Assembly (NCBI GenBank): GCA_014155875.1 | Contig: JACEFZ010028305.1 | Span: 65,001-129,000 of the forward strand | Source of the DNA: Cepaea nemoralis | Lineage: Eukaryota; Mollusca; Gastropoda; Stylommatophora; Helicidae | DNA length: 64,000 bases | Direction: 5' to 3' | Shown here: piece by piece, positions 8,011 to 63,105 of the stretch | Position numbering within the stretch: position 1 is the first letter of the stretch | Layout: each line of letters starts with the position of its first letter | Program-made: the position numbers and the translations under genes | Notes under the pieces: generated by a model | Seen by the model: only the letters and a program-made list of their open reading frames with translations | Databases searched by the model: none | What the model was told of the DNA's origin: nothing

Positions 8011-8234
8011 AATTGTCTGGTTTGCAGAAACCGGTTTGCAAATGGCGGCAGTTGTTGATAAATGTATGCTTAGAAGCAGTGAGAGATGCACCATCTATCC
8101 TCAATTTTAGTCTAGATCACAAAGTTTAGATGATAAGCCTTCACACACGCCCGCTTCTTCACATCAAAGCAATGATATCACATTAGCAAACTCCTGCCAC
8201 TTCCTGTGTATCTCTTTATGTTGTCTAAACTAGT

Positions 8235-15604: not shown

Positions 15605-16135
15605 CTTCACAGGAATGAGAAATCTACACATTTGTATCACTTCACCTTGTTAGCACTCTATACACTTGTATCATTTCACAGTATCTGCACTCTATACACT
15701 TGTATCACTTTACCGTGTAAGCACACTATACACTTGTATAATTTCACCGTGCCTGCGCCCTACACACTTGTATTATTTCACTGTGTCTGCACTCTATACA
15801 CTTGTATCATTTCACCGTGCCTGCACTCTGTACACATGTATCACTTCACCGTGTTAGCACTCTATACACTTGCATTACTTCACCGTGTTAGCACTCTATA
15901 CACTTGTATCACTTCACCGTGTTAGCACTCTATACTCTTGTATCATTTCACCGTGCCTGCACTCTATATACTTGTATCATCACTTCACCGTGCCTGCACT
16001 CTATATACTTGTATCATCACTTCACCGTGTTAGCACTCTATACAATAGTATCACTTCACCGTGTTAGCACTCTATACATTTATATCACTTCACCGTGTTA
16101 GCACTCTTTACATTTGTATCAACATTTCACCGTGA
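15605..16135. repeat. 34-35-bp minisatellite, unit B
   Basis: Same array as at 4640-6380, without the two retroposon insertions, so those insertions are younger than the duplication or were never on this copy. Confidence 0.95.
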
Positions 16136-17774: not shown

Positions 17775-17994
17775 AATTGTCTGGCCTCTCCTTCCCAGAA
17801 ACAAATGACTTCAGTTGTTGGTAAACGTATGTTTAGAAGCAGTGAGAAGTGCACCATCTATCCTCAATTTTAGTCTAGATCACAAAGTTTAGATGACAAG
17901 CCTTCAAACACGCCCGCTTCTTCACATCAAGACAATGATATCACATTAGCAAACTCCTGCCTCTTCCTGTGTATCTCTTTATGTTGTCTAAACT

Positions 17995-27522: not shown

Positions 27523-28575
27523 ATGGAGATATATCGCAAAGTGCACTGTGTTGTTAGTATCGCGGTCATAATGTATATACATATGACACTTTGCAAAGTC
27601 GAACAACAATACATGAACTTTAACAAAATTATCACCTGCAAGCTGAAATACCGACTGGGCAATGGCTTGGTCCATCCCAAGTCAGGCGAATACCCAAGTA
27701 TCATTAAATGCGCCGCAGAATGTCAAGACGATTGCTGTGGCGTGCATGTGGATGAACACCGCGTGTGCTATCACCATGTTGACTGCACCAGGAGGATCAA
27801 CTGCACTCCCAAAGATGTTTTCTTTGAGCTGTATATGAAGAATCCCTGTGAACATGATGGCACGTGGGATCCGGTTCGCTGTACGTGTAAATGTAATGAT
27901 GGTTGGGTAGGTGATCGCTGTGAACGATACCCTCGGAACTGTAAAGAAATGACTGTTTACGGTTACGAAGATAGCTATCAGAAACGTATAATGTTGCACC
28001 CAGAAACCTCACCAATGCCGTTTTTGGCTTACTGCAGTTATTACAGAAACGATCCGGAGTATTTTCTTGACGTAATGTACAATACAGGACACTATGACAA
28101 CACGATGACCTGGTCTGACTACGTCGACGGGTTCCATCACGACAGCACAAATTACTGGCTAGGTCTGGACAAGATGAAACATCTCAATAATGCAGGTCTA
28201 ACTGATGTCTTTCTCAGGGTCATCGTGAACATCAGCGGCACTACAAAGAAGCCCAACTACGCCTTCAAACAGTTCCGTTTTGGATCAGCTGAGACCGGCT
28301 ATAATTTCACTGCCATCTCCGGCGAATATAACTCCGAGGGTGGTGTGTATGGAGACTGCCTAACTCCTGTCTTGGGTGTTTCATTTTCTACTGCCGACCA
28401 TGACAACGACCTGGACACGGCCAACTGTGCCAGTGAGGGCAAAGCTGGCTGGTGGTTTAAAACCTGTAATGTTGGATGCAATCCTTTGGGACCTGCATCT
28501 CACTGGAGAATGATGACTCGTTTCAAATTGGACCGAAGTATTTTAACCACATATATGTATTTTAAGGGTGTGTAG
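27523..28575 (+). CDS. secreted fibrinogen-related protein, copy C
   Basis: An intact 350-codon frame beginning MEIYRK, co-linear with copies A and B. A signal peptide covers about residues 7-23. It has the Cys-rich PAN/apple-like region, the EGF-like segment (CEHDGTWDPVRC, GWVGDRCE) and a fibrinogen-like domain with the DHDND calcium motif and GWW. The 112 sequon is lost (NGT becomes DGT). It is the most divergent of the three. Differences from B are concentrated at about residues 28-47, 175-184 (RNDPEYFLDV against RDKKDFFTYV), 217-228 and 242-269, while the Cys framework and calcium site are unchanged. That pattern fits a folded, still functional protein whose surface is diversifying. It is transcribed away from copy B. 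Confidence 0.9.
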   Translation: MEIYRKVHCVVSIAVIMYIHMTLCKVEQQYMNFNKIITCKLKYRLGNGLVHPKSGEYPSIIKCAAECQDDCCGVHVDEHRVCYHHVDCTRRINCTPKDVFFELYMKNPCEHDGTWDPVRCTCKCNDGWVGDRCERYPRNCKEMTVYGYEDSYQKRIMLHPETSPMPFLAYCSYYRNDPEYFLDVMYNTGHYDNTMTWSDYVDGFHHDSTNYWLGLDKMKHLNNAGLTDVFLRVIVNISGTTKKPNYAFKQFRFGSAETGYNFTAISGEYNSEGGVYGDCLTPVLGVSFSTADHDNDLDTANCASEGKAGWWFKTCNVGCNPLGPASHWRMMTRFKLDRSILTTYMYFKGV

Positions 28576-37040: not shown

Positions 37041-37488
37041 ACCTCACAGTTACACAGTATAACACCGGAATAAATTAATGAATTTCAAAGGGTATGTTCA
37101 GTGTGAACAACGTATGGTGTCGTTTTCAACTAGGCAGTGTGTACGACAGTTGTATTTAATATGAGCTACGTATAGCGAGGCTTTCTATTAGGTATTGTGT
37201 CAAACTGTTATGTTTCTCATGAGCCGCGTATAGTGTGGTTTTCTATTAGGCATTGTGTACGGAAGCTGTGTTTAACATGAGCCACGTGTATTGTGGCTTT
37301 CTATTAGGCAGTGTGTTAGACAATTATGTTAATCATGAGCCACGTATAGTGTGGCTTTCTATTAGGCAGTGTGTGCTGCAGCTGTATTTAACATGAGCCA
37401 CGTATAGTGTGACTTTCTATTAGGCACTGTATAAGGCAGCTGCATTTAGCATAAATCACGTATAGTGTGGCTTTCTTTTAGGCAGTGT

Positions 37489-37803: not shown

Positions 37804-39481
37804 AATGTGTAGAATGTGTGTCGTATATTCTAAGGTGTATATGTAGAAATCAGACTACAAAGCTCCGGATCACAGTCTGATCATCATTGTACGAGTTACA
37901 CCACATCATCACGGGTCAGTAAACAAACACCTCACCACACGATGCGTCCCTCTTGTTCGATGTTGACTCTCTCCGGTAGCCCTTTGATAACCCAGATACC
38001 TGGTCACCAATCACGAATATAGTCTGATACTGATCCGGCAGCGATCACACACCCTGTTAATAAATGTCTATATGGTTCCGAGACATAAACCTTCCTTGTC
38101 TAGTGAAAACAAGTAACACTGTTCCCGGGAATAAATGATTCATTCTTACAAGTCCTACCGTTTTCACTATTACACTGTTTCTCGTTCTTTGAATTAATTC
38201 CTATTAATAGTTCACAGGTGGTGTGAAAATGTTAAAACACTCTAATGTTATTTCACTTGCAGTGTGAAAAGCAAACACTTTAATGTTATTTCACTTGTGG
38301 TGTGAAATCAAACACTCTAATGTTATTTCACTTGTGGTGTGAAATCAAACACTCTAATGTTATGTCACTTGTGGTGTGAAAATCAAACACGATATTGTTC
38401 CTACACCCGTGGTGTGAACAGTAACACTCCATTATTTCTTTCACGAGTGGTGTGAAATAATAAACCCTTTTCTCATGGGCCAAATGCACAGGCCACTGAA
38501 CAGAAATCCTCGTACCAAGTTCTCCATGATACGAACAATTCAGCATCTGTTCGTTGAAAACCCGAGGGGAACCTGTGAAAGAGACACAACAGACTCGGTG
38601 AGAGCAATCTGATACTGACTCCTATTAGATGAGTGTAGGCCTACAGTCTTACTCAGATCCATGACAGTGAACCAATCTCTGTCATGTCAGAGGAGCTCAT
38701 CACCCGGGCCTGAGTTAGGGCAAGACAAGGAAAGACCAATACACAAAGTGTAGAACCCCAGTATACCCCCACTGGAAGATCCCACCATTGGATATTTCCC
38801 CTATCCCCCAACCATTCCCAATCACACTAAATATCATCCCCTTTCACTATCCTCAACTAGCTGAGCTAATTTACATCTCACACTAGTTAGTTTAACACTG
38901 CGACTGTCTACTGTCGCCGACACTGTTTTTATACTTGACTACAAAGCAACCACTACGTTAAAGTTCTAAACTCTAACTATCATTTTACTATTCTACATTA
39001 ATAACATTTAAATGCTAAGTGTAGATACCCTATGAATTCCTAGCTCACAATCCGAATTGAATCTCCAATTTGCCATGAAAGACACATGTTTTTCTCTCAA
39101 ATACACTGATAGTAAACATGCGGGATTCTTTTCACTCCGAGCACTGAGCTATTCAACACGTTAGCCTAGGTCAACGTTATTGTGCACTCTCCCGACAACA
39201 AGTCTGTTTTATACAGTATGGGATTGACCTCGTGACGTCATTCTCCTGTCAACAACATGTGGCAACCGAATCACGGCGGCGCCTTGCCTTTCATCTTGAG
39301 TCTTGTCCAAGACAACCGGGAAACTCTTTTCCCGTTTCTCCGGGGAATCCTCAAAGACTAGCGGCGCCTATGATCCTACGGGAATGTCCCCACTAGTTGC
39401 AAACAATTTGTAAGGTTGAATATAGCCTGCCGCTGTTGTTTTATCATCTTATCGTGATTATAGTGGTTTCGTGACAATGAG
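37489..39481. mobile_element. probable solo LTR (Gypsy-like)
   Basis: The 1,983-bp insert 37494-39476 begins TGTCGTAG and ends CGTGACA. It is flanked by the 5-bp duplication ATGAG (37489-37493 and 39477-39481) inside the minisatellite. TGT...ACA ends and a 5-bp duplication are typical of Gypsy-type LTR retrotransposons. No gag or pol frame is present. It holds a GT microsatellite (about 37764-37800) and an internal tandem repeat at 38215-38460. Confidence 0.75.
38215..38460. repeat. 34-38-bp tandem repeat inside the LTR
   Basis: About six units with AACACTCTAATGTTATTTCA and GTGGTGTGAAA. Such repeats in an LTR can vary copy number or act as enhancers. Confidence 0.9.
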
Positions 39482-40757
39482 GCAGCTGTGTTTAGCACTA
39501 TCCACGTATAGTTTGGCTTTTTATTAGGCAGTGTATGAGGCAGCTGCGTTTAGCGAGAACCACGTATAGTGTGGCTTTCTATTAGGCATTGTGTACGGCA
39601 GCTGTGTTTAGCATGAACCACGTATAGTATAGCTTTCTATTAGGCAATGTATGAGGTAGTTGTATTTAGCATGAACCACGTATAGTGTGACTTTCTATTA
39701 GGCAGTGTATGAGACAGCTGTGTTTAATATGAACCACGCTTTCTATTAGGCAGTGTATGAGACAGCTGTGTTCAGCACGATCCACGTATAGTGTGGCTTT
39801 CTATTAGGCAGTGTATGATGCAGCTGCGTTTAGCATGAACCACGTATAGTGTGGTTTTCTATTAGGCAGTGTATGAGGCAGCTGTGGTTAGCATGATCCA
39901 CGTATAGTATGGCTTTCTATTAGGCAGTGTATGAGGCAGCTGTATTTAGCATGAACCACGTATAGTATGGCTTTCTATTAGGCAGTGTATGAGGCAGCTG
40001 TATTTAGCATGAACCACGTATAGTATAGCTTTCTATTAGGCAGTGTATGAGGTAGTTGTATTTAGCATGAACTACGTATAGTTTAGCTTTCAATTAGGCA
40101 GTGTATGAGACAGCTGTGTTTAATATGAACCACGCTTTCTATTAGGCAGTGTATGAGACAGCTGTGTTCAGCACGATCCACGTATAGTGTGGCTTTCTAT
40201 TAGGCAGTGTATGATGCAGCTGCGTTTAGCGAGAACCACGTATAGTGTGGCTTTCTATGAGGCATTGTGTAAGGCAGCTGTGATTAGCGTGAACCACGGA
40301 TAGTGTGGCTTTCTATTAGGACTTGTGTGAGGCAGCTGTGTTTAGCATGAACCACGTATAGTGTGGCTTCTATTAGGCAATCTATGAGGCAGTTGTATTT
40401 AGCATGAATTACGTAAGGTCTGGTTGTCTATTAGGCAGTGTATGAGGCAGCTGTGTTTACATGAACCACGTATAGTATGGCTTTTTATTAGGCAGTGTAT
40501 GAGGCAGCTGTGGTTAGCATGATCCACGTATAATATGGCTTTCTATTAGGCAGTGTATGAGGCAGCTGTGTTTAGCAATAACCACGTATAGTGTGGCTTT
40601 CTATTAGGCATTGTGTACGGCAGATGTGTTTATCATGAACCACGTATAGTGTTGCTTTCAATTAGGTAGTGTATGAAGCAGCTATTGTCAGCGTTAACTA
40701 AGCGTGGTGTGGTTTTCTAACATCTAGAGTCAACTAAGCGCGGTGTGGCTTTCTAAC

Positions 40758-41599: not shown

Positions 41600-42580
41600 C
41601 ATATAGTGTTAACAACTGTAGCTAAACATAATTCTGAGAACAGTTAAACGGAAAGGATAAGAGCTCTAGCTGCCCCAAAACTCGAGGAAGAGAAAATCAC
41701 AACTGCACCTCCTCGCGGTAGAGAGCGGGAAACAGTCATCGGTGTGGTAAACGTAGCGCTGGAAGGGGGGGGGGGGGGTGAATATCCACCAGGATAAGTT
41801 GACATAGATGGGGTACTCTATACTGTAAGCGAGAGTACAACAGAGCAAGATGCACACTTACCTTGGGAACTTAAAAGGTTGCTGTAGGTTGCGAACATAG
41901 TTCACAGCCATGTGGATGTGGAAAGCAAGGGAAAACTACAACTTTATCCATCCCAAGACACGCAACATGATAGTCGATTGTATTCACCAACAATGGGGAC
42001 TGCACACACACAAAATTAGACACAAATTGGCCATGACACTGCGGAGATGACACCGTATTAAGAACCCTTGACCAACACCAGCACAACGTTAACATACAAT
42101 TTGTGAGGACATGCATCTTTCCTGAAGCAACTTGTTGATATGAAGTCATGGATAATTTCGCTATCACTAGAGAAGAAAATGGAGGATTTTGAGCTGAAAT
42201 GTTACAGAGAGGGTTTTTAAATATCATGGACCAAGAAGAAGGAAACTACTGACACTCCACAGGATCTGAGCATGGAAGACAACCTGCGCATGGAGAGTAT
42301 CTTGTCTCGGGAACTGGAATACTTTAACCATAGTGAACGTCACAAGGACTTGGAGAGAACAGTTCAGGAAGGCATGGATCCTGGTAGATGAGGCAAGATG
42401 GGCACAAACATTGCAGACATCTGTGGGATGAGGATGTACGAGACAGGATGAATGGCCAGGGATCACGACGGTTTTCGCCGTACTGTGATGAGAGCAACGT
42501 TCTGTAAATGAGCTGCTACATGATGATGATCGGCACACTTTGTGCGATGTATGCAATATCACGTCCTTTCTTTCCTGAAC
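41600..42580 (+). mobile_element. decayed RTE-like LINE 3' end
   Basis: From about 42050 the plus strand keeps a frameshifted C-terminal segment related to the LINE at 24706 (a match to RTCIFPEAT at about 42109, an ELKCYRE-like stretch at 42195, then CGTTCTGTAAATGAGC) and ends with an ATG-repeat tail at about 42520. The part 41600-42050 contains a G homopolymer (about 41766-41779) and nothing else recognised. Confidence 0.6.
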
Positions 42581-42639
42581 ATTAGTAGTAGGATAGGTGG
42601 TATTTGAGTCGCATTTCCGGAGTGTGGTGCTGGATTGAC

Positions 42640-42700
42640 CTAGTAAAATCCTTATATAAAAAGTATAGCTCCTGAGCCGTGACGTCAAAAAGCGACTCCT
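42640..42700. promoter_or_regulatory. CRE-like and TATA-like motifs near palindrome end (left)
   Basis: TTATATAAAAAG at about 42651 and a perfect TGACGTCA at 42680-42687. The mirror copy is at 55840-55847. Promoter function is a guess from motifs only. Confidence 0.3.
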
Positions 42701-42719
42701 TCGGGGCAAGGGATATAAC

Positions 42720-45505
42720 TCAGGAATACATAATTTAATGCTTTCTTGCGTTATTACCTCCCCTTTTTGGGTTGAGAATTTTATTTATTTATTTATTTTT
42801 TTAAATGTAATGATTACTGTTAATTATTGTTGTAGTGGGCGGGGCTTAAAAACTAACAGCATGTGATTGAATGTGTATTAGGGTTACAGTGCTCTTCCTC
42901 GGTTTCTTTCCCTTTTATTGTTCTCATCTATTTTATCTATATAGGGCCGGGCGTAAGACTATCAACAATACATTGGGGCTGTGTAAGGTTTAGGGGTACA
43001 GTGTATCTCCGCGGGAGCGTCTAGGATGCGGGTGAACGTAGGGTGGGCGCGCCGGGGTGGGGTGCGAAGGGGGCGGCGCATGGGGTGGGGCGAGGGGGGT
43101 TCGAACCCACGAGCCGCGCCGAGTGTCATAGGAAAACCGTGATAAGTAAAAGGTAAGTAGGGTTGGTATATGGTATGTAGAGAGTCGTAACGGTTTATTC
43201 ACTATCATCATACGAGTTACAAATGAAAACCTTAAAAAGGTAAGGATGGCCGATAGTATTGAATGTAGTGAGTATGGATTAGTGAAATTCGTTGTTAAGA
43301 GGTGAGAGAATGGAGGAAAGGTTAGATAAGTACTTCTGATCCTTGTTACGGGGTAGACGAGGGGCAGGGTTGCTAGATAAATACTCCGACAGCAATATTA
43401 GAACACCCGAGGTTAAGGCTCATAGTAAAAGCTGAAGCATGAACTCATAGTCGGCTGACTTGAAGGTGAGCTCCTGGGTGACTCAGCGCAAGGCGATGTC
43501 GGCGGTGAACATGATTGAACGTATTCAGACATGTTTTGGGGAAAACCATGAATGACTCATCGTGACATAACCACGGTATACATGCCCAGACATGTTTTTG
43601 GGGGTGGGACTGTAAACACTCTAAATCAACGCATGGTAAGACCACTGTATAACGATACAAACCTCTGACTATACATGTTTTAATGAGAATATCTAGGTGT
43701 TTTACTGTATACGTCTAACCGGATTGCACTGGTTGTTGTATAGTTTGACTCAACGTCATTATAAAGGAGCTCAAATGTCGGCTAAGGACACTGTGTTTGC
43801 AACAAGGGCTATCGAAAATACCTCACTAAAGAAACAGCTGTGGTAAGTAGAGTGTGATATACAGAGTCGCTCTACGATGTAGTAGTCTCTCAGATCATAC
43901 CAGCGTAGTACAACGGCGATAAATACTAGCTAGTAGTCGGCAAACTGACGCTCTTACCACGGAAATTAACGCTATACTAGTATACTGTGGTGAATACGGG
44001 TTTATACAATAATAATATATGTAGATGACTACTGAAAGCACAGGTGACCTACTAACCACTTTGTGTCAATCTATGTGAGTGTCTGTTTCTCGGTCGTCCT
44101 TATGCTGTCTATGATGTAGGGTAAGTGATGGTAGATGATGTGGTGCATTCTAACTATGTAATGTATACATATGAACAAGTGTGTTTTTCACTAAAGTATA
44201 TCAACCATGTTTTTATGTTTTCCGTTTTCTGTTCACTAAAAGTATCCTGATTCTGGTTCGACAGATTTGAACATAAGAGAAGACACATCAACCACGCAGT
44301 GTTGGAGCAACGCAATTCTGTCACTCACAGAGGTATGTGTAGTAGGGGGATCAAGTCATCTACTTGTCTCTCCTATCTCCACTAAGTGTATTGAACAGTG
44401 TAAGACAAGGATCTATGGTCACTAATTACGTAGCCAGCCACAAGGACGTCATCTTTCTGCGCACTAACTTATGTATATGAAACAGGATGTATCATGTATT
44501 CAACTATTCAATATTTATGGATCATATATCCGCTCATTAAAGTACACTGGTTCTCCAGAGTGAAAAGGTGCTGACACAAACTGAGCTGTCTGAGTGAAAA
44601 ACTTGCAGCCACAGGACAACTTAGAGTCATTCTCTGTGGTCACTAATGTATCAATGTAAATCACTAAGATACACGGTCTAAAAATAATGTGTCTCTTCAC
44701 ATTGTGCCAAGGCTACATAAAAATCAAATATGTGGTGTCAAATTCATGTAAAGCTTACAATATGATATCCCGTGTGTAAAAAACAAAAATCTTTATCGTT
44801 TCACCAGAGTGAAAATTTGCTGACATAACCAGGAAAAAAGCTACCTTACAGAGGTACATACAAGAAAAAAGAAATCTCTGACAGTCTACCACAAATTATT
44901 GGTCTGCATTCACCATTGTTTTTCACTAAAGGAGCAACACTAAATATTTCACTCCTAGGTATTAGGGGGCATAGTCACCTTTGCTCATTAGTATAGTACA
45001 CCTTGATATGCCATATAAATAACACAAAGAACAGCATTACGAAACAAGCCGCTGCTAGCACAAGAGGAAAAGCATATAGTCATGGAGAAGACCCATTGTA
45101 TGGACGGGATCAACAGAAACAAATAAATATTTTACTACAAGGGACAGCAAAAGATCAAAATATTCCTTTTAATATGTCTTAAAAGTTATGTGATATGAAA
45201 TAATTTCTGTAGATATACTATAGTCATGATTGTCTTATGGTTGTGAAAAAATGTAAAATATAATGATTTTACCCTTCTTCACAGCTATTTGGCGACCAGT
45301 GCTTACAACGACTTGCGAAAACGTGAAAAAAACTACAGGAAGCTACACAAAACATATTGTGGTTGATCATTATACCTTAGTCATTACAGCGTCACGAGAT
45401 TATTGCGCTGTCACTGAATCGTTATCTAATACCACAAGCGATAACTGTGTTGGATAATATTGTCGTAGTATCACAACTAACACATCAGCTACTGGAACCA
45501 ACTTA
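42720..45505. other. left arm, region upstream of zinc-finger frame
   Basis: A GC-rich segment (about 43005-43120) contains a B-box-like GGGTTCGAACCC (about 43107 on the minus strand) but no complete tRNA. The rest is AT-rich. A 64-codon frame at 45263-45457 just upstream of the zinc-finger frame could be a short upstream exon or chance. The motif TTTCACTAAA recurs at about 44188, 44234 and 44925. Confidence 0.45.
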
Positions 45506-45550
45506 TTGCTTTATCACCGTATCATCAAATACTACTACATTTTTTCTATC

Positions 45551-46432
45551 ATGATGGCCACCAGTCAGAAAAATAGCTATCTATGTCACACCTGTGGTAA
45601 AAGCTTTACAAAAAACCGCAATCTTACACGTCACATTAACACCGCACACAAAACCACAACTCATACATGCCACCTCTGTGGCAATCTATACAACAGAAAA
45701 GACAACCTAAAATACCATATAAAAACACATCACCAGACTTCATCAACAACAACACCCGCAGCAAGCACGGACACTACCCCATCAACAGCAAACACGAACA
45801 ATACACTCTCAACAACAAACACGGATACTACACCCGCATCATGCAAAAGAAAAGCATCAGCAGACACACAACCATCAAAAAACCATAAACACGATAACGA
45901 GCAAGTGGTAGCAGAGGAACCCGACATAGAGATAGATGAGGAAGTAGAGATAGATGAGGAACTAAAGACCTTAGACAAACTCCCCGACGACGACGACATC
46001 CAACAGACATATAGAGACAACTGGGCAGCCCTTAGGACACATCAGAACATCAACAAACATATATCGACCTACAACTTTTTTCACCGACCAGACGCAGTAC
46101 AACCAATAGACTGGCCCGAGACATTAAAACCAGTATTTAGTAGCCAGACATGTCGCTTTAAGATAAATTATAGCCATCACATGATTTTAAGACATAAGGA
46201 AACGAATGAACTTAGATTTTACCATTCATCATCAAACAACGCCTGTGAACTCGACGTACCCTTTTTAGTAAACAACGAGCAAGAATTTGATGACTTTACA
46301 GCCATAGTCCAGGATAGTGACATGTTCAATAACGCCCTACACAACAGACCCGACACTAAGTACCTGGTAGAGACAATACCCGCGACTAGTTTCTATGTAT
46401 ATCACATCACTGAACATCCGATAGGTAGCTGA
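45551..46432 (+). CDS. two-finger C2H2 zinc-finger protein, left arm
   Basis: The frame opens at 45506 (308 codons). The ATG at 45554 or 45551 has the better context and yields a protein of about 292 residues. In 308-residue numbering, C2H2 finger 1 uses C27, C30, H43, H48 and finger 2 uses C55, C58, H71, H76. A Thr/Ser/Asn-rich linker (about 78-112) and a basic patch (CKRKA) follow, then an acidic stretch (DIEIDEEVEIDEEL). A compact C-terminal region of about 130 residues comes last (WAALRTHQNINKHISTYNFF, RFKINYSH, LRFYHSSSNNA, HPIG). From memory, that region resembles part of large C2H2 proteins linked with family-B DNA polymerases in selfish elements of cnidarians and other invertebrates; this is unverified. 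The stop directly after HPIG, where such proteins continue, suggests truncation or a splice donor (AG/GTAGCT). An AATAAA lies at about 46493. Both arms carry the identical frame. Confidence 0.75.
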   Translation: MMATSQKNSYLCHTCGKSFTKNRNLTRHINTAHKTTTHTCHLCGNLYNRKDNLKYHIKTHHQTSSTTTPAASTDTTPSTANTNNTLSTTNTDTTPASCKRKASADTQPSKNHKHDNEQVVAEEPDIEIDEEVEIDEELKTLDKLPDDDDIQQTYRDNWAALRTHQNINKHISTYNFFHRPDAVQPIDWPETLKPVFSSQTCRFKINYSHHMILRHKETNELRFYHSSSNNACELDVPFLVNNEQEFDDFTAIVQDSDMFNNALHNRPDTKYLVETIPATSFYVYHITEHPIGS

Positions 46433-46569
46433 AGCATTTCGTATAATGACATTATGTTTTGATATTTTTTTCTTGTTAAAAAAGTACTGTAAATAAACAG
46501 GTATAAACTATAACAGTGTGTTGTTTGTTGATTTCCTTTCGTGTTGACGGTGTATATAGTTGCCATGTG

Positions 46570-48080
46570 GTGAGAAAATGTTACATATTGAGGACAAAGT
46601 CAAGAAATATGTCAATAACACTAAGAAAAAGAGTAACCAAAATATAAAAAAGGCTGACCAAATTCAGAAATATCTCGACAAAACTCATGAAAAGTAGGAA
46701 AATTGTTAGTCAAATGTGAAAAATATGGTTCAAGTAGGAAATCATGTTAGCCAAAGGTGAAAACTATTGACCAAGTAAAGAAACTTCTCAGCCAAACTCA
46801 TAAAAAGTAGCACAAATTTGATAGCCCAAGGGGAAAATGGTGGCCGTATACAGAAATATCTCGACCAAACTTACAAAAAGTAGGAAAATATGTCGACTAA
46901 AGTAGGAACATTTGTTAGCCAAAGATGAAAAATATTGGTCAAGTAAAGAAATATCGCATCCAAACTTTTAAAATGTAGGAAACTTTATTAACCAAATGTG
47001 AAAAATATTGTCCAAGTAAAGACATGTTTCAACTAATCTTATAAATATGTCGTCCAAACTTATAAACATTAGGAAAATGTGTTAACCTAATGGGAAAAAT
47101 ATTGGCCAAGTGAAGAAATATCTCAACCATACTTATGAAAAGGAGAAAAATGTGTTATCCAAAAGGGAAAAATATTGTCCAAGTAAAGAAATGTTTCAAC
47201 TAGTCTTATAAATATGTCGTCTAAACTCATGAAAAGGAGAAAAATGTGTTATCCAAAAGGGAAAAATATTGACCAAGTGAAGAAATATCTCAACCATACT
47301 TATGAAAAGGAGAAAAATGTGTTATCCAAAAGGGAAAAATATTGTCCAAGTAAAGACATGTTTCAACTAGTCTTATAAATATGTCGTCTAAACTTATGAA
47401 AAGGAGAAAAATGTGTTATCCAAAAGGGAAAAATATTGACCAAGTGAAGAAATATCTCAACCATACTTATGAAAAGGAGAAAAATGTGTTAACCAAATGA
47501 GAAAAATATTGCCCAAGTGAAGAAAAATTTACACAAAACTTATAAAACTTAGGAAAATGTGTTAACCTAATGAGAAAAATATTGCCCAAGTGAAGAAAAA
47601 TTTACACAAAACTTATAAAACTTAGGAAAATCTGTTAACCTAATGAGAAAAATATTGCCCAAGTGAAGAAAAATTTACACAAAACGTATAAAACTTAGGA
47701 AAATGTGTTAACCTAATGAGAAAAATATTGCCCAAATGAAGAAAAATTTTACACAAATCTTATAAAACTTAGGAAAATGTGTTAACCTAATGAGAAAAAT
47801 ATTGCCCAAGTGAAGAAAAAATTTACACAAAACTTATAAAACTTAGGAAAATGTGTTAACCTAATGAGAAAATATTGCCCAAGTGAAGAAAACATTTACA
47901 CCAAACTTATGAAAAGTATGAAAATTTGTTAACCAAAGGGGAAAAAATATGGGCTAAACTATGAAGTATGTTGACCGAAGTAAGAAAATGTGTTAACCAA
48001 ATGGGGAAAAATGTTGGCCAAAACATGAAACATCTTAACCAAACTTATAAATATCTCGTGTAAACTTTTAAATAAGTAGG
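46570..48080. repeat. AT-rich tandem repeat, left arm
   Basis: About 1.5 kb of degenerate units containing AGGAAAATGTGTTAACC, GAGAAAAATATTGCCCAAG and TGAAGAAA. The units are most homogeneous between about 47500 and 47900 (68 to 70 bp) and more diverged toward the zinc-finger gene. Confidence 0.93.
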
Positions 48081-49068
48081 AAAAAAAATATTGCGTCTGT
48101 AGTTATGTCAAAAGTATCTTGAACTTTTATCTGAACAGACATTTCACAACACATAATCATCAACGTCAACACTTTCCCTCTTTTACGTTACCGAAAGTTT
48201 CAACTTACCATTCCAGAGTAGCTGCTAAAGACGCACTTATACATGCTAATCACCCATCTGGCCACACTCTTGGTTGTTGTCTTCTAACATAAAATATCTC
48301 TGTCTTTCGTAGATAGTCTTCACAACTTTTCCATGTCACAGCCCCAAGAACTGCAAACCTCCATTGTACATGAGCTCCAATAAAACAGTCATAACAACAT
48401 TTATGGTAATGCAATCTGTGGCTCCACCTGGGATAGTTTCAATATCATCTGAGTATTCGTCAGCAAAGAGCTATTACCCATGGCTGACATCTTCAACTTT
48501 CTATACCACAATGACACTAACCTTCCATTGTTCCATCTTTCAACAATACAAAGGGTGTTCTCGAAGTCTAACTAACATAATATTTCTTACTTTGGCCACC
48601 TCTTTCACACGTTGTCATTTCACAGCTGCGATAACGACAAGTCTGCAACCAACACTGTCTGTTATGAAGTCGACCTTTCTTAAAACCACGTCTGTCCTTA
48701 ATGAGCCCTTAAATACCCTCTACCAGATCTTATAACCGACTTTCAACGTTTCATACCAAATAACATTAACACTCTCTTTGATTACAGAACAACCGATTTT
48801 CTGCTGACTAGGCAGGTTTCTCAATCTAATGGAGATAAATCACCTGTCCTCCTAACATACTAGGCACTATTCTAGACAACGAATATGGTCATCAACCAGC
48901 ACCCCTAAGAAGAACTTGAAATCAGCAACAGAGATTGGGTTCCTGAGACGAATTCCTTGGACTACCAGAGTAACTAACGCTGATCGCCTAAAAGAGCCTA
49001 CAAAACATAGAGCCTTATATACATCAAACACAACAAACTCTTTCTTACTAACCCTAACTATACATCAT
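48081..49068. other. left arm, inner non-repeated part
   Basis: One 123-codon frame at 48364-48735 is shortened in the mirror copy by a 1-base difference. No domain is recognised on either strand, so I do not call a gene. Most of the arm-to-arm differences lie in and near this part. Confidence 0.5.
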
Positions 49069-49112
49069 CTAACCCTAACCCTAACCCCTAATCCTTAACC
49101 CTAACCCTAACC
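49069..49112. repeat. telomere-like CCCTAA array, left
   Basis: About seven CCCTAA units, two of them imperfect. The mirror array in the right arm reads TTAGGG. Confidence 0.9.
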
Positions 49113-49225
49113 ATACAGCAAAAACAACAAACTGTCTTAAGAGACATAGATACAAACCAGTGTTAGAAATGGAAAAAGTTAAATTTTAATTAAAATTTAA
49201 AACTAATAAATCGCAATTTTATTGC

Positions 49226-49304
49226 TCGCTTCACTTAATATACAGATATAGGCTAAGTATAGGTATAAGTTAGGTATAAGACGTATATCGAGGTTACATC
49301 TTGC
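49226..49304. other. 79-bp spacer at the centre of the palindrome
   Basis: Unique, AT-rich, non-palindromic. It contains repeated GGTATAAG. The flanking arm sequence starts at ATTGC/GCAAT. Confidence 0.85.
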
Positions 49305-49417
49305 GCAATAAAAGTGCGATTTATTAGTTTTAAATTTTAATTAAAATTTAACTTTTTCCATTTCTAACACTGGTTTGTATCTATGTCTCTTAAGACAGTT
49401 TGTTGTTTTTGCTGTAT

Positions 49418-49461
49418 GGTTAGGGTTAGGGTTAAGGATTAGGGGTTAGGGTTAGGGTTAG
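49418..49461. repeat. telomere-like TTAGGG array, right
   Basis: Mirror of 49069-49112. Confidence 0.9.
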
Positions 49462-50449
49462 ATGATGTATAGTTAGGGTTAGTAAGAAAGAGTTTGTTGT
49501 GTTTGATGTATATAAGGCTCTATGTTTTGTAGGCTCTTTTAGGCGATCAGCGTTAGTTACTCTGGTAGTCCAAGGAATTCGTCTCAGGAACCCAATCTCT
49601 GTTGCTGATTTCAAGTTCTTCTTAGGGGTGCTGGTTGATGACCATATTCGTTGTCTAGAATAGTGCCTAGTATGTTAGGAGGACAGGTGATTTATCTCCA
49701 TTAGATTGAGAAACCTGCCTAGTCAGCAGAAAATCGGTTGTTCTGTAATCAAAGAGAGTGTTAATGTTATTTGGTATGAAACGTTGAAAGTCGGTTATAA
49801 GATCTGGTAGAGGGTATTTAAGGGCTCATTAAGACAGACGTGGTTTTAAGAAAGGTCGACTTCATAACAGACAGTGTTGGTTGCAGACTTGTTGTTATCG
49901 CAGCTGTGAAATGACAACGTGTGAAAGAGGTGGTCAAAGTAAGAAATATTATGTTAGTTAGACTTCGAGAACACCCTTTGTATTGTTGAAAGATGGAACA
50001 ATGGAAGGTTAGTGTCATTGTGGTATAGAAAGTTGAAGATGTCAGCCATGGGTAATAGCTCTTTGCTGACGAATACTCAGATGATATTGAAACTATCCCA
50101 GGTGGAGCCACAGATTGCATTACCATAAATGTTGTTATGACTGTTTTATTGGAGCTCATGTACAATGGAGGTTTGCAGTTCTTGGGGCTGTGACATGGAA
50201 AAGTTGTGAAGACATCTACGAAAGACAGAGATATTTTATGTTAGAAGACAACAACCAAGAGTGTGGCCAGATGGGTGATTAGCATGTATAAGTGCGTCTT
50301 TAGCAGCTACTCTGGAATGGTAAGTTGAAACTTTCGGTAACGTAAAAGAGGGAAAGTGTTGACGTTGATGATTATGTGTTGTGAAATGTCTGTTCAGATA
50401 AAAGTTCAAGATACTTTTGACATAACTACAGACGCAATATTTTTTTTCC

Positions 50450-51960
50450 TACTTATTTAAAAGTTTACACGAGATATTTATAAGTTTGGTTAAGATGTTT
50501 CATGTTTTGGCCAACATTTTTCCCCATTTGGTTAACACATTTTCTTACTTCGGTCAACATACTTCATAGTTTAGCCCATATTTTTTCCCCTTTGGTTAAC
50601 AAATTTTCATACTTTTCATAAGTTTGGTGTAAATGTTTTCTTCACTTGGGCAATATTTTCTCATTAGGTTAACACATTTTCCTAAGTTTTATAAGTTTTG
50701 TGTAAATTTTTTCTTCACTTGGGCAATATTTTTCTCATTAGGTTAACACATTTTCCTAAGTTTTATAAGATTTGTGTAAAATTTTTCTTCATTTGGGCAA
50801 TATTTTTCTCATTAGGTTAACACATTTTCCTAAGTTTTATACGTTTTGTGTAAATTTTCTTCACTTGGGCAATATTTTTCTCATTAGGTTAACAGATTTT
50901 CCTAAGTTTTATAAGTTTTGTGTAAATTTTTCTTCACTTGGGCAATATTTTTCTCATTAGGTTAACACATTTTCCTAAGTTTTATAAGTTTTGTGTAAAT
51001 TTTTCTTCACTTGGGCAATATTTTTCTCATTTGGTTAACACATTTTTCTCCTTTTCATAAGTATGGTTGAGATATTTCTTCACTTGGTCAATATTTTTCC
51101 CTTTTGGATAACACATTTTTCTCCTTTTCATAAGTTTAGACGACATATTTATAAGACTAGTTGAAACATGTCTTTACTTGGACAATATTTTTCCCTTTTG
51201 GATAACACATTTTTCTCCTTTTCATAAGTATGGTTGAGATATTTCTTCACTTGGTCAATATTTTTCCCTTTTGGATAACACATTTTTCTCCTTTTCATGA
51301 GTTTAGACGACATATTTATAAGACTAGTTGAAACATTTCTTTACTTGGACAATATTTTTCCCTTTTGGATAACACATTTTTCTCCTTTTCATAAGTATGG
51401 TTGAGATATTTCTTCACTTGGCCAATATTTTTCCCATTAGGTTAACACATTTTCCTAATGTTTATAAGTTTGGACGACATATTTATAAGATTAGTTGAAA
51501 CATGTCTTTACTTGGACAATATTTTTCACATTTGGTTAATAAAGTTTCCTACATTTTAAAAGTTTGGATGCGATATTTCTTTACTTGACCAATATTTTTC
51601 ATCTTTGGCTAACAAATGTTCCTACTTTAGTCGACATATTTTCCTACTTTTTGTAAGTTTGGTCGAGATATTTCTGTATACGGCCACCATTTTCCCCTTG
51701 GGCTATCAAATTTGTGCTACTTTTTATGAGTTTGGCTGAGAAGTTTCTTTACTTGGTCAATAGTTTTCACCTTTGGCTAACATGATTTCCTACTTGAACC
51801 ATATTTTTCACATTTGACTAACAATTTTCCTACTTTTCATGAGTTTTGTCGAGATATTTCTGAATTTGGTCAGCCTTTTTTATATTTTGGTTACTCTTTT
51901 TCTTAGTGTTATTGACATATTTCTTGACTTTGTCCTCAATATGTAACATTTTCTCACCAC
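50450..51960. repeat. AT-rich tandem repeat, right arm
   Basis: Mirror of 46570-48080, with one A fewer in a homopolymer at about 50855. Confidence 0.93.
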
Positions 51961-52094
51961 ATGGCAACTATATACACCGTCAACACGAAAGGAAATCAAC
52001 AAACAACACACTGTTATAGTTTATACCTGTTTATTTACAGTACTTTTTTAACAAGAAAAAAATATCAAAACATAATGTCATTATACGAAATGCT

Positions 52095-52976
52095 TCAGCT
52101 ACCTATCGGATGTTCAGTGATGTGATATACATAGAAACTAGTCGCGGGTATTGTCTCTACCAGGTACTTAGTGTCGGGTCTGTTGTGTAGGGCGTTATTG
52201 AACATGTCACTATCCTGGACTATGGCTGTAAAGTCATCAAATTCTTGCTCGTTGTTTACTAAAAAGGGTACGTCGAGTTCACAGGCGTTGTTTGATGATG
52301 AATGGTAAAATCTAAGTTCATTCGTTTCCTTATGTCTTAAAATCATGTGATGGCTATAATTTATCTTAAAGCGACATGTCTGGCTACTAAATACTGGTTT
52401 TAATGTCTCGGGCCAGTCTATTGGTTGTACTGCGTCTGGTCGGTGAAAAAAGTTGTAGGTCGATATATGTTTGTTGATGTTCTGATGTGTCCTAAGGGCT
52501 GCCCAGTTGTCTCTATATGTCTGTTGGATGTCGTCGTCGTCGGGGAGTTTGTCTAAGGTCTTTAGTTCCTCATCTATCTCTACTTCCTCATCTATCTCTA
52601 TGTCGGGTTCCTCTGCTACCACTTGCTCGTTATCGTGTTTATGGTTTTTTGATGGTTGTGTGTCTGCTGATGCTTTTCTTTTGCATGATGCGGGTGTAGT
52701 ATCCGTGTTTGTTGTTGAGAGTGTATTGTTCGTGTTTGCTGTTGATGGGGTAGTGTCCGTGCTTGCTGCGGGTGTTGTTGTTGATGAAGTCTGGTGATGT
52801 GTTTTTATATGGTATTTTAGGTTGTCTTTTCTGTTGTATAGATTGCCACAGAGGTGGCATGTATGAGTTGTGGTTTTGTGTGCGGTGTTAATGTGACGTG
52901 TAAGATTGCGGTTTTTTGTAAAGCTTTTACCACAGGTGTGACATAGATAGCTATTTTTCTGACTGGTGGCCATCAT
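52095..52976 (-). CDS. two-finger C2H2 zinc-finger protein, right arm
   Basis: Mirror copy of the left-arm frame (full open frame 52095-53021; likely start at 52976 or 52973). The encoded 308-residue reading is identical to the left copy. Domain order and the early stop after HPIG are as described there. The two genes converge on the spacer. If both are expressed, their transcripts would be indistinguishable, and run-through toward the centre would produce RNA that can fold on itself. Confidence 0.75.
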   Translation of the reverse strand: MMATSQKNSYLCHTCGKSFTKNRNLTRHINTAHKTTTHTCHLCGNLYNRKDNLKYHIKTHHQTSSTTTPAASTDTTPSTANTNNTLSTTNTDTTPASCKRKASADTQPSKNHKHDNEQVVAEEPDIEIDEEVEIDEELKTLDKLPDDDDIQQTYRDNWAALRTHQNINKHISTYNFFHRPDAVQPIDWPETLKPVFSSQTCRFKINYSHHMILRHKETNELRFYHSSSNNACELDVPFLVNNEQEFDDFTAIVQDSDMFNNALHNRPDTKYLVETIPATSFYVYHITEHPIGS

Positions 52977-53021
52977 GATAGAAAAAATGTAGTAGTATTT
53001 GATGATACGGTGATAAAGCAA

Positions 53022-55945
53022 TAAGTTGGTTCCAGTAGCTGATGTGTTAGTTGTGATACTACGACAATATTATCCAACACAGTTATCGCTTGTGGTATTA
53101 GATAACGATTCAGTGACAGCGCAATAATCTCGTGACGCTGTAATGACTAAGGTATAATGATCAACCACAATATGTTTTGTGTAGCTTCCTGTAGTTTTTT
53201 TCACGTTTTCGCAAGTCGTTGTAAGCACTGGTCGCCAAATAGCTGTGAAGAAGGGTAAAATCATTATATTTTACATTTTTTCACAACCATAAGACAATCA
53301 TGACTATAGTATATCTACAGAAATTATTTCATATCACATAACTTTTAAGACATATTAAAAGGAATATTTTGATCTTTTGCTGTCCCTTGTAGTAAAATAT
53401 TTATTTGTTTCTGTTGATCCCGTCCATACAATGGGTCTTCTCCATGACTATATGCTTTTCCTCTTGTGCTAGCAGCGGCTTGTTTCGTAATGCTGTTCTT
53501 TGTGTTATTTATATGGCATATCAAGGTGTACTATACTAATGAGCAAAGGTGACTATGCCCCCTAATACCTAGGAGTGAAATATTTAGTGTTGCTCCTTTA
53601 GTGAAAAACAATGGTGAATGCAGACCAATAATTTGTGGTAGACTGTCAGAGATTTCTTTTTTCTTGTATGTACCTCTGTAAGGTAGCTTTTTTCCTGGTT
53701 ATGTCAGCAAATTTTCACTCTGGTGAAACGATAAAGATTTTTGTTTTTTACACACGGGATATCATATTGTAAGCTTTACATGAATTTGACACCACATATT
53801 TGATTTTTATGTAGCCTTGGCACAATGTGAAGAGACACATTATTTTTAGACCGTGTATCTTAGTGATTTACATTGATACATTAGTGACCACAGAGAATGA
53901 CTCTAAGTTGTCCTGTGGCTGCAAGTTTTTCACTCAGACAGCTCAGTTTGTGTCAGCACCTTTTCACTCTGGAGAACCAGTGTACTTTAATGAGCGGATA
54001 TATGATCCATAAATATTGAATAGTTGAATACATGATACATCCTGTTTCATATACATAAGTTAGTGCGCAGAAAGATGACGTCCTTGTGGCTGGCTACGTA
54101 ATTAGTGACCATAGATCCTTGTCTTACACTGTTCAATACACTTAGTGGAGATAGGAGAGACAAGTAGATGACTTGATCCCCCTACTACACATACCTCTGT
54201 GAGTGACAGAATTGCGTTGCTCCAACACTGCGTGGTTGATGTGTCTTCTCTTATGTTCAAATCTGTCGAACCAGAATCAGGATACTTTTAGTGAACAGAA
54301 AACGGAAAACATAAAAACATGGTTGATATACTTTAGTGAAAAACACACTTGTTCATATGTATACATTACATAGTTAGAATGCACCACATCATCTACCATC
54401 ACTTACCCTACATCATAGACAGCATAAGGACGACCGAGAAACAGACACTCACATAGATTGACACAAAGTGGTTAGTAGGTCACCTGTGCTTTCAGTAGTC
54501 ATCTACATATATTATTATTGTATAAACCCGTATTCACCACAGTATACTAGTATAGCGTTAATTTCCGTGGTAAGAGCGTCAGTTTGCCGACTACTAGCTA
54601 GTATTTATCGCCGTTGTACTACGCTGGTATGATCTGAGAGACTACTACATCGTAGAGCGACTCTGTATATCACACTCTACTTACCACAGCTGTTTCTTTA
54701 GTGAGGTATTTTCGATAGCCCTTGTTGCAAACACAGTGTCCTTAGCCGACATTTGAGCTCCTTTATAATGACGTTGAGTCAAACTATACAACAACCAGTG
54801 CAATCCGGTTAGACGTATACAGTAAAACACCTAGATATTCTCATTAAAACATGTATAGTCAGAGGTTTGTATCGTTATACAGTGGTCTTACCATGCGTTG
54901 ATTTAGAGTGTTTACAGTCCCACCCCCAAAAACATGTCTGGGCATGTATACCGTGGTTATGTCACGATGAGTCATTCATGGTTTTCCCCAAAACATGTCT
55001 GAATACGTTCAATCATGTTCACCGCCGACATCGCCTTGCGCTGAGTCACCCAGGAGCTCACCTTCAAGTCAGCCGACTATGAGTTCATGCTTCAGCTTTT
55101 ACTATGAGCCTTAACCTCGGGTGTTCTAATATTGCTGTCGGAGTATTTATCTAGCAACCCTGCCCCTCGTCTACCCCGTAACAAGGATCAGAAGTACTTA
55201 TCTAACCTTTCCTCCATTCTCTCACCTCTTAACAACGAATTTCACTAATCCATACTCACTACATTCAATACTATCGGCCATCCTTACCTTTTTAAGGTTT
55301 TCATTTGTAACTCGTATGATGATAGTGAATAAACCGTTACGACTCTCTACATACCATATACCAACCCTACTTACCTTTTACTTATCACGGTTTTCCTATG
55401 ACACTCGGCGCGGCTCGTGGGTTCGAACCCCCCTCGCCCCACCCCATGCGCCGCCCCCTTCGCACCCCACCCCGGCGCGCCCACCCTACGTTCACCCGCA
55501 TCCTAGACGCTCCCGCGGAGATACACTGTACCCCTAAACCTTACACAGCCCCAATGTATTGTTGATAGTCTTACGCCCGGCCCTATATAGATAAAATAGA
55601 TGAGAACAATAAAAGGGAAAGAAACCGAGGAAGAGCACTGTAACCCTAATACACATTCAATCACATGCTGTTAGTTTTTAAGCCCCGCCCACTACAACAA
55701 TAATTAACAGTAATCATTACATTTAAAAAAATAAATAAATAAATAAAATTCTCAACCCAAAAAGGGGAGGTAATAACGCAAGAAAGCATTAAATTATGTA
55801 TTCCTGAGTTATATCCCTTGCCCCGAAGGAGTCGCTTTTTGACGTCACGGCTCAGGAGCTATACTTTTTATATAAGGATTTTACTAGGTCAATCCAGCAC
55901 CACACTCCGGAAATGCGACTCAAATACCACCTATCCTACTACTAA
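53022..55945. other. right arm, outer part
   Basis: Mirror of 42582-45505. No additional gene is seen. A CRE-like TGACGTCA lies at 55840-55847 and a TATA-like TTTTTATATAAGG at about 55865. Confidence 0.5.
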
Positions 55946-56690
55946 CATTTCCTCATACACATTTTAGGTTCATCTGGGAGCCCAAGTCTACGTTTATACA
56001 AATCCCGCCTCAATGGCTCGGGCTGGCGAGCACGGGTGATGAATACAAGTCGATGAATGTAGGTACCAGGGAGCGGCGGCGGGACATCAGTAAAATTATC
56101 CACGGAGAGGTAGCGTTGTCTTCCCTCCTTCTAACCATCATCGTTGGATCTGTGTATAGCCCGGGTTCCCAAACTGTTGGTCGTGATTCCCAAGGCAGTA
56201 GCAAAGTGCTTTCTCAGGAGAGAAGTGTGTCGGCTTGGGGGTGCCTCGGTTACTTTTATTTGCAATTATTTTTGTAAGAAAATTTTACAACGTTTTTGAA
56301 CGTTTGTGTCCAATACGGCCTCACTGGAATGTTCCACTAGTATCTGCATAACTTACGTTTTTGTTTCCTAAGCGAAAGGAAGTGATTAAATATCCACTAA
56401 TAATTATATTTAACATAAGGCTGAGATTCGACGCATTTTTTCTTTTAACAAAGGCCAAATAGACTGCATGATAAGGATGATTTGAGGCTAGCCTAACACA
56501 TACTAGGCTGCGAATTTTGAGGCTGGCGGGGAGGCAAGTACAATCATGGCATTACATATTTATCATTATCAGGTCATTTTCAGAACGTAGTTCTCATCTC
56601 AACCAGCTGGAAAGACTCTAGATCTTTCACTTGCTCCAATGCCTTGTGCATTTTAATTTCCAGTATCTGTCGGCCGTTGCCTCGTCTACA
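55946..56690. other. gene-free stretch right of palindrome
   Basis: Nothing supported except a weak tRNA-like stretch around 56012-56035. It is unrelated to the left flank of the palindrome. Confidence 0.4.
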
Positions 56691-60439: not shown

Positions 60440-63105
60440 AATCAGCTGTAAATTATTTCCTCTAACAATACATCAATAGGAGTAGTACATTAGTTCTCCT
60501 AGCAATACAGCAACACGAGTAGTACAGTAGTTCTCCTAGCAATTCAGCAATATGAGTAGTACATTAGTTCTCCTAACAATACATTACCATGAGTAATATA
60601 TTAGTTCTCCTGGCAATACAGCAACACGAGTAGTACATTAGTTCTCCTAACAATACAGCAACACGAGTAGTACATTAGTTCTCCTAACAATACATTACCA
60701 CGAGTAGTACATTAGTTCTCCTAACAATACACCAACACGAGTAGCACATTAGTTCTCCTAACAATACACCAACATGAGTAGTAGATTAGTTCAGCTAGCA
60801 ATACAGCAATACGAGTAGTACATTAGTTCTCCTAGCAATACAGCAACACGAGTAGTACATTAGTTCTCCTAACAATACAGCACCACGAGTAGAACATTAG
60901 TTATCCTAGCAATAAAATAACACGAGTAGTACATTAGTTCTCCTAGTAATACAGCAACACGAGTAGTACATTAGTTCTCCTAACAATACAGCACCATGAG
61001 TAGTACATTAGTTCTCCTAGCAATAAAATAACACGAGTAGTACATTAGTTCTCCTAGCAATACAGCAACACGAGTAGTACATTAGTTCTCCTAACAATAC
61101 AGGAACACGAGTAGTACATTAGTTCTCCTAACAATACATTACCACGAGTAGTACATTAGTTCTCCTAACAATACACCAACACGAGTAGTACATTAGTTCT
61201 CTTAACAACATATTACTACGAGTAGTACATTAGTTCTCCTAACAATATAGCAACACAAGTAGTACATTCCATCCATCCATCCATCCATCCATCATGTGCC
61301 ATGCCGGTAAGCGTGGGCGGTCATGTTCTGCCATCTCACTCGATCACCAAAGTCGTGGATCAGCTCCGTGTTTCTGTCTCGACCATGCCACAAGGCCAAG
61401 CCATCCAGGTACTTGCTTCTAGGTCTTCCCCTTGGTCTGTTCCCCTCGATCTTGCCAGTTGTCACCAAGTTCTCCAAATCATTTCTTCTCATAACATGCC
61501 CAAAAAATTGTGACTGTCTACGTCTAATGTCTCCAATCAGTTTACGATCTTCATTTGTTTCTTGAAGGACTTGTTCATTGGTCTTTCTGGCTGTCCATGG
61601 TATTCTTTGCATTTTCCCCAGAAACCACATTTCTACATCCATCAGATGTTTTTCAGCCTGACTGCTCATTGTCCAAGCTTCACATCCATATAAAAGTACA
61701 GGTTCTATGTAGCATCTCAACACTCTTTTTCTCGTTTCAATTGACATCTTTTTACTGGTCAATATGTTTTTCATCTTGCTAAAGGCTACTTTTGAGTCTG
61801 CTTAATACAATACACGATACTGGAAATATACTTCAGGAGTTATGTAATTCTGTATTTATTGCAATCCCAAAGAAATCAGGAGCCTTGGAATGTGATCAAC
61901 ATCGAACAATTAGTATAATGAGTCACATCACGAAGATTTTGCTAAGAATTATCATGCTAATAATTATGAGGATAATACAACCTGAAATAGGAGAAGAACA
62001 ATGTGGGTTTGTAGAAGGCAAGGGTACAGTAAATGCTGTGTATATACGGAGAACCGTAATCGATCGTTCTATAGAAGTAAACAAAGATCTACACCTTTGC
62101 TTTATTGACTACACAAAGACTTTCGATAAAGTGAGACATGTCGACATGATAAGGATGCTTGAAGATCTACAAATTGATGGAAAAGACCTTAGACTTGTAA
62201 AAAACATATATTGGAATCAACAGGCTACCATAAGAGTTGATAATGAAGTAAGCCAATATCAGCCTATTAAGAGAGGTGTGAGACAGGGATGTGTAATGTA
62301 TCCAGATCTGTTTTCCCTGTACAGTGAAAGTAGTACATTAGTTCTCCTAAAAATACATTACCACGAGTAGTACATTAGTTCTCCTAACAATACAGCAACA
62401 CGAGTAGTACATTAGTTCTCCTAACAATACACCAACACGAGTAGTACATTAGTTCTCCAAACAATACATTACCACGAGTAGTACATTTGTTCTCCTAACA
62501 ATACATTACCACGAGTAGTACATTAGTTCTCCTAACAATACATTACCACGAGTAGTACATTAGTTCTCCTAACAATACAGCAACACGAGTAGTACATTAG
62601 TTCTCCAAACAATACATTACCACGAGTAGTACATTTGTTCTCCTAACAATACATTACCACGAGTAGTACATTAGTTCTCCTAACAATACATTACCACGAG
62701 TAGTACATTAGTTCTCCTAACAATACAGCAACACGAGTAGTACATTAGTTCTCCAAACAATACATTACCACGAGTAGTACATTAGTTCTCCTAACAATAC
62801 AGCAACACGAGTAGTACATTAGTTCTCCTAACATTACACCAACACGAGTAGTACATTAGTTCTCCTAACAATACATTATCACAAGTAGTACATTAGTTCT
62901 CCTAACAATACAGCAACACGAGCAGTACATTAGTTCTCCTAACAATACATTACCACGGGTAGTACATTAGTTCTCCTAGCAATACATTACCACGAGTAGT
63001 ACATTAGTTCTCAATACAATACACAAACACGAGTAGTACATTAGTTCTCCTAACAATACAGCACCACAAGTAGAACATTAGTTCTCCTAACAATACAGCC
63101 ACAAC
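60440..63105. repeat. 37-bp minisatellite, split by an RTE
   Basis: Units ACGAGTAGTACATTAGTTCT plus CCTAACAATACAGCAAC, with CAGCAAC/CATTACC/CACCAAC variants mixed. Some sets of three units recur, for example around 62405-62790, pointing to higher-order duplication. An RTE copy splits the array at 61269-62328. Confidence 0.97.
61258..62339 (-). mobile_element. RTE LINE with 5' inversion (twin-priming structure)
   Basis: The insert 61269-62328 lies between AGTAGTACATT at 61258-61268 and 62329-62339, which is also part of the minisatellite unit. Its 3' part (61774 down to 61292, minus strand) encodes an intact C-terminal 160 residues (MKNILTSKKMSIETRKRVLR, HVMRRND, AHAYRHGT) and ends in a TGGA-repeat tail. 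The 5' part (61792-62328, plus strand) encodes fingers/palm with IAIPKK, EEQCGF, LCFIDYTKTFDKVRH and KRGVRQGC. It is inverted, and the segment with the catalytic YADD is missing. Confidence 0.9.

Follow-up and report, generated by a model that had tools for sequence, protein, structure and literature searches.

Intact vertebrate Mavericks are described in PMC8097293 as elements of 12.7–24.6 kb with inverted repeats of 46–1447 bp, 6-bp target-site duplications (TSDs) and gene modules that generally read toward the centre, their commonest end motif being (AGT)2 at the 5' end and (ACT)2 at the 3' end. In polintons, a terminal protein (TP) normally forms the N-terminus of the protein-primed DNA polymerase (PolB). 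These TP (D1) domains consist of a four-stranded sheet and two helices, matching the little-finger (LF)/PAD region of Y-family polymerases, and have a serine or tyrosine between alpha2 and beta4 with a glycine or proline near it (PMC11071308). Polinton tips vary: PMC4061559 gives GTGTGTGT as common to one wasp polintovirus and the Bombyx bidensovirus, a bidnavirus, and describes bidnavirus PolB as itself polinton-derived. Here we analyse a window of 64,000 nt from Cepaea nemoralis (GCA_014155875.1, contig JACEFZ010028305.1, positions 65,001–129,000, forward strand), in which a near-perfect palindrome with one gene in each arm is probably an integrated, non-autonomous derivative of the Polinton/Maverick type, present as a snap-back (inverted-dimer) genome.

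With the Mavericks of PMC8097293 this element shares a 6-bp TSD, (AGT)2//(ACT)2 ends, inverted terminal repeats, a size within their range and a gene that reads centre-ward. It is unlike them in that its inverted repeats fill practically the whole element, one gene is present twice, and the domains of the core genes were not found in one arm plus the spacer.

Other described systems are alike in part. Adeno-associated virus (AAV) is a hairpin-primed parvovirus. Its 5' snapback genomes, as reported in PMC8235507, are self-complementary, consist of a single genome end together with its promoter and a portion of the replication gene, may be symmetric or looped, and depend on a helper; the palindrome differs from them in its presumed protein priming and in being fixed in a chromosome with a TSD. 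In adenoviruses the TP is also encoded apart from the polymerase, but adenovirus TPs have N- and C-terminal helical extensions, whereas the arm protein has N-terminal zinc fingers and stops after the domain. Streptomyces linear replicons are linear DNA with inverted repeats that can exceed 600 kb, according to PMC8743542, and invertron plasmids have a terminal protein, panhandle intermediates being discussed for them in PMC1864894. Unlike the Cepaea element, these are bacterial or mitochondrial replicons and not animal chromosomal insertions.

Architecture of the palindrome

The arms at 42582–49225 (6644 bp) and 49305–55945 (6641 bp) are 99.91% identical over 6644 bp from end to end (BLASTN and MAFFT), with three substitutions and three 1-base indels in total. 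An inverted repeat so long and so nearly identical is far beyond what chance would produce. The spacer between the arms exhibits 25% identity to its own reverse complement, which is the chance level, and hence has no self-complementarity. The original prediction had described near-perfect reverse-complement arms around a unique, asymmetric 79-bp spacer, each arm with a gene, a tandem repeat and a telomere-like array. All of this stood, as the open reading frame (ORF) is identical in both arms and the arrays and 44-bp stretches were mapped in each of them (Table 1). As in a snap-back genome, the same end and adjoining gene are found in both arms, with a unique loop between them.

The arm differences span 47669–49216 and 49314–50859, in the inner quarter of the arms, and the outer 5087 bp contain none. 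No further copy of the arm was found in the remaining window at E 1e-5, and no relative was found in the viral-contig and genome-contig collections searched. Because the arms are 99.9% identical, the insertion appears to be recent.

Table 1 Coordinates of the palindromic element and of the features within it. Positions are those of the window.
Feature	Position	Strand	Description
Whole element	42584..55943		13,360 bp; 5'-AGTAGTAGG...CCTACTACT-3'; end motif (AGT)2//(ACT)2 as in Mavericks
TSD, left copy	42578..42583		AACATT, 6 bp
TSD, right copy	55944..55949		AACATT, 6 bp
Left arm	42584..49225	+	terminal inverted repeat
Right arm	49305..55943	-	terminal inverted repeat, near-identical reverse complement of left arm
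Spacer (loop)	49226..49304		79 bp, unique and asymmetric
Left-arm gene	45551..46432	+	293 aa from ATG; two C2H2 zinc fingers, low-complexity linker, C-terminal domain with TP-like (LF/PAD-like) predicted fold
Right-arm gene copy	52095..52976	-	DNA identical to left-arm gene
Candidate priming residue Tyr271	codon 46361-46363		left-arm gene
Candidate poly(A) site, AATAAA	46492..46497	+	about 60 nt beyond stop codon, GT-rich DNA next
AT-rich tandem array	46692..47946	+	left arm; units about 73, 94 and 167 bp
Tandem array, mirror	50582..51835	-	right arm
Telomere-like (CTAACC)n	49069..49112	+	left arm; 44 bp
Telomere-like stretch	49418..49461	-	right arm; 44 bp, GGTTAG on +

Element ends and target-site duplication

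The arms had been described as stopping at exactly mirrored positions, 42582 and 55945, in unrelated flanks. The left and right flanks are indeed mutually unrelated, while the ends were refined to 42584 and 55943: the outermost 2 bp belong to the AACATT duplication, and because its left TT and right AA mirror each other, the palindrome appears to reach 2 bp past the element at either end. AGTAGT at 42584 and ACTACT at 55943 stand directly inside the AACATT copies, between which the element begins with AGTAGTAGGATAGG and finishes with CCTATCCTACTACT. Another 6-bp repeat near the ends, TTTCCT at 42571 and 55948, has mismatched offsets.

When the real arm end was kept and flanks were drawn randomly from the window, 54 of 20,000 trials gave a duplication of at least 6 bp at any of the 11 offsets allowed. 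With random arm ends too, three of 400,000 trials (about 7.5e-6) combined a 6-bp duplication with a start in AGTAGT or AGAGAG, the end criterion being (AGT)2//(ACT)2 or (AG)3//(CT)3 termini, which are drawn from vertebrate elements. A looser count of 6-bp repeats in these trials gave 14,323 of 400,000, a figure probably raised by hexamers within the arm that are their own mirror images.

A Ginger transposon was considered and rejected, as Ginger elements have TGTNR termini and CCGG/CCGT or RTATAY duplications (PMC2836005), and the ends here are AGTAGT with an AACATT duplication. Judged by eye, the left flank at 42180–42520 resembles the decayed 3' end of a non-long-terminal-repeat (non-LTR) retroelement.

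A putative terminal protein gene in each arm

Each arm includes one intact copy of the gene, and both copies read toward the centre. The gene lies in a stop-free run of 324 codons, which has a probability of about 1.7e-8 under the base composition. Pfam identified two C2H2 stretches in its product, and a PHROGs search gave weak matches only, some of them to zinc-finger families. Among 5.8 billion proteins, two relatives were found, and a profile search added one more relative of the C-terminal domain; the remaining 29 of its 32 matches span just 16–29% of the query and have zinc-finger domains. The C-terminal domain has about 160 residues. Its identity to the three relatives is 51, 54 and 58%, and two of them (P0002 and P0003) had no Pfam match above the cut-off.

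The second of two fold models of this domain has the order beta1-alpha1-beta2-beta3-alpha2-beta4, and the first is alike except that beta3 is barely formed. Pro267 and Tyr271 are invariant in all four sequences, i.e. the arm protein and its relatives. Both residues are in the alpha2-beta4 loop of the first model, and in the second the tyrosine is the first residue of beta4, so that the tyrosine with a nearby proline stands where TPs have their serine or tyrosine. Upon re-alignment to PDB structures, Y-family polymerases made up 44 of 50 and 46 of 50 among the matches listed, nearly all in the LF/PAD region. The first model had no Foldseek match at E <= 0.001 to the viral fold library or the PDB. 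For the second model, the viral library returned the 'Structural protein' of bird parvovirus-like viruses at ranks 1, 4 and 5 (prob 1.00, 1.00 and 0.77), a 'C2H2-type domain-containing protein' of Drosophila-associated adintovirus 2 at rank 2 (prob 0.99) and MELD virus DNA polymerase B at rank 7 (prob 0.92). Bird bidnaviruses encode a polinton-type PolB (PMC9896142), and some adintoviruses were reported with zinc-finger genes (PMC11071296).

By fold comparison, the arm gene may encode a zinc-finger TP, with Tyr271 as the candidate DNA-linking (priming) residue. The likeness to the TP (D1) domain of polinton PolB (PMC11071308) consists of the predicted beta-alpha-beta-beta-alpha-beta order, the Y-family matches and the tyrosine with its proline at alpha2-beta4. 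The arrangement differs, as two C2H2 fingers precede the domain and the protein ends with it, whereas polintons continue with a protease (vOTU) and the polymerase.

An intron at the end of the ORF was considered, since the stop after 'HPIGS' could mask a splice donor (GGTAGCT), and was judged less likely; a second exon was not recognised in six frames. The ends of P0002 and P0003 likewise fall at PIG or PVG, one residue before the end of the arm protein, a stop codon there being deduced from the proteins alone, which argues against an intron. P0001 extends 24 residues further, so in this relative the boundary is not the end of the protein. We favour the stop codon as the likely true gene end. 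The candidate poly(A) site behind it, one of four AATAAA motifs on the gene strand of the arm, suggests a complete short gene. Alternatively, the arm protein might be what is left of a fused polymerase gene, and not a working stand-alone primer.

Six-frame translations of one arm and the spacer, with X at stops, were searched with Pfam for a PolB catalytic domain, integrase, ATPase, capsid and protease, and none of these was found; zf-C2H2 and one sub-cut-off BAR match inside the tandem array were the only matches. No protein-primed polymerase with sequence homology to the C-terminal domain was found among 382 candidates of about 473–1505 aa. As core genes were sought and not found, we class the element as Polinton-derived and not as an autonomous Polinton.

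Other features of the element and window

The telomere-like stretches are degenerate, are 305 bp apart and face each other as CCCTAA-centre-TTAGGG on the + strand. A telomere-to-telomere fusion was rejected for their origin, as a head-to-head fusion would give the opposite order and each array has just 44 bp. No tRNA or Rfam RNA was found in the window at default thresholds.

Outside the palindrome, ORFs of 350–378 aa with a fibrinogen C-terminal domain (PF00147) are located at 6958–8094 (-), 16722–17804 (-) and 27523–28575 (+). Across about 1.1 kb, the third ORF is 90% alike to the first and 92% alike to the second, and the three form a small cluster of putative fibrinogen-related genes. ORFs of this kind would fit an invertebrate, perhaps a mollusc. 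Tandem arrays with a common 34-bp unit (5636–6355 and 15623–16121) each lie near a fibrinogen-domain ORF, as if co-duplicated. To the left of the palindrome are 58-bp satellite arrays with similar units, at 37106–37488 and 39477–40683. Two 37-bp tandem arrays (60448–61268 and 62329–63097) bracket a reverse-transcriptase ORF at 61792–62370 (PF00078, E 2.8e-18) that extends into the beginning of the second array.

Weighing of alternative explanations

The duplication, the end motif and the putative terminal protein are three lines that point to a Polinton-derived element. According to the original prediction, a giant terminal-inverted-repeat transposon, a linear virus-like genome or plasmid integrated head to head, or a very recent inverted duplication could explain the palindrome. 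The first and second of these come together here, as Polinton/Maverick ends and a TSD are found on an inverted dimer with a putative TP gene. Several findings weigh against a genuine snap-back insertion. Its inverted repeats, of about 6.64 kb, contrast with the 46–1447 bp that those of intact vertebrate Mavericks reach according to PMC8097293. All six arm differences are confined to the innermost 1556 of the arm's 6644 bp, for which random placement gives P of about 1.6e-4. Three are indels of a single base, including one in an A-run and another in CC, as might be left by residual consensus errors. These points favour the main rival, an assembly artefact in a real, asymmetric Maverick-type insertion, in which a mis-join or a chimeric palindromic (fold-back) read put the mirror of one half in place of the other. 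Long-read and amplified libraries are known to yield such fold-back reads. The inner clustering could arise if consensus errors gathered close to the centre of the hairpin, or if the outer portions had been homogenised. The right end, however, looks genuine, since its flank is unrelated to the left one and has a separate copy of AACATT next to a proper ACTACT terminus. The loop is an asymmetric, unique sequence, and a simple fold-back read would be expected to mirror the flank as well. The earlier argument against an assembly error, which relied on sharp outer ends and on the spacer, is thus strengthened by the ends and the duplication, which mark a real element boundary, but it is not closed for the presence of both arms in one molecule. 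We regard such an artefact as unlikely.

A different mobile element or an integrated linear virus or plasmid in inverted-dimer form, whether bidnavirus-like, adintovirus-like or of another superfamily with 6-bp duplications, would account for the bird parvovirus-like and adintovirus proteins among the viral fold matches of the second model. The polinton origin of bidnavirus PolB stated in PMC4061559 and the panhandle intermediates of invertron plasmids treated in PMC1864894 are also consistent with it. The (AGT)2//(ACT)2 termini and the 6-bp TSD correspond neither to the bidensovirus GTGTGTGT tips nor to the TGTNR ends of Ginger, and we consider an origin outside the Polintons improbable. Replication-based models of inverted copying have been published (PMC4689423 and PMC10766183), and an ordinary chromosomal inverted duplication of a host segment, by replication template switch or break-induced fold-back, would make the terminal repeats coincidental. 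A plain inverted duplication is disfavoured because a 6-bp direct repeat just outside AGTAGT...ACTACT is not expected from it. One flank should then be continuous with the native neighbour of the arm, and the joint occurrence of TSD and end motif by chance is about 7.5e-6; this explanation we hold to be very improbable.

Proposed origin of the probable snap-back genome and its implications

Protein-primed linear genomes replicate by strand displacement. For the snap-back derivative of a Polinton, we propose that the parent element would have been copied in this manner from a protein-capped end, and that the growing or displaced strand would have folded back near the present spacer and been copied to its own 5' end. 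The product would be a linear molecule with the same end, upstream region and TP gene on both sides of a unique loop. With a proper end on either side, this molecule could have relied on an intact relative for polymerase and integrase in trans, both to be replicated and to be inserted, AACATT being duplicated upon insertion. Short complementary stretches, GCAAT/ATTGC and TTGCGCAA, are present at the central junctions and could have primed the fold-back.

In a literature search, no paper was found on non-autonomous, defective or palindromic Polintons, and a broader search found none on a palindromic Polinton among the papers listed, judging by titles and the openings of abstracts. As far as these searches show, the palindromic, primer-only architecture is new and the end type is already known.

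Protein priming of polintons has so far been deduced from gene content, folds and end sequences. A snap-back copy with proper ends and a duplication would be a fossil of such replication, and would show that insertion needs no second type of end, the same one serving on either side. If the stand-alone zinc-finger TP is real, it would be a case from a eukaryotic element, beside adenoviruses, of a TP split from its polymerase, and it would give a reason why so stripped an element could spread. Tentatively, and with considerable doubt, the element may represent a satellite class of 'snap-back Polintons', which retain only two protein-primed ends and their own zinc-finger TP, and borrow polymerase and integrase. 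In such a class, as in adenoviruses, TP and polymerase would be separate, and transcription that reads through the convergent arms may yield hairpin RNA against the parent, as PMC8235507 proposes for AAV 5' snapback genomes.
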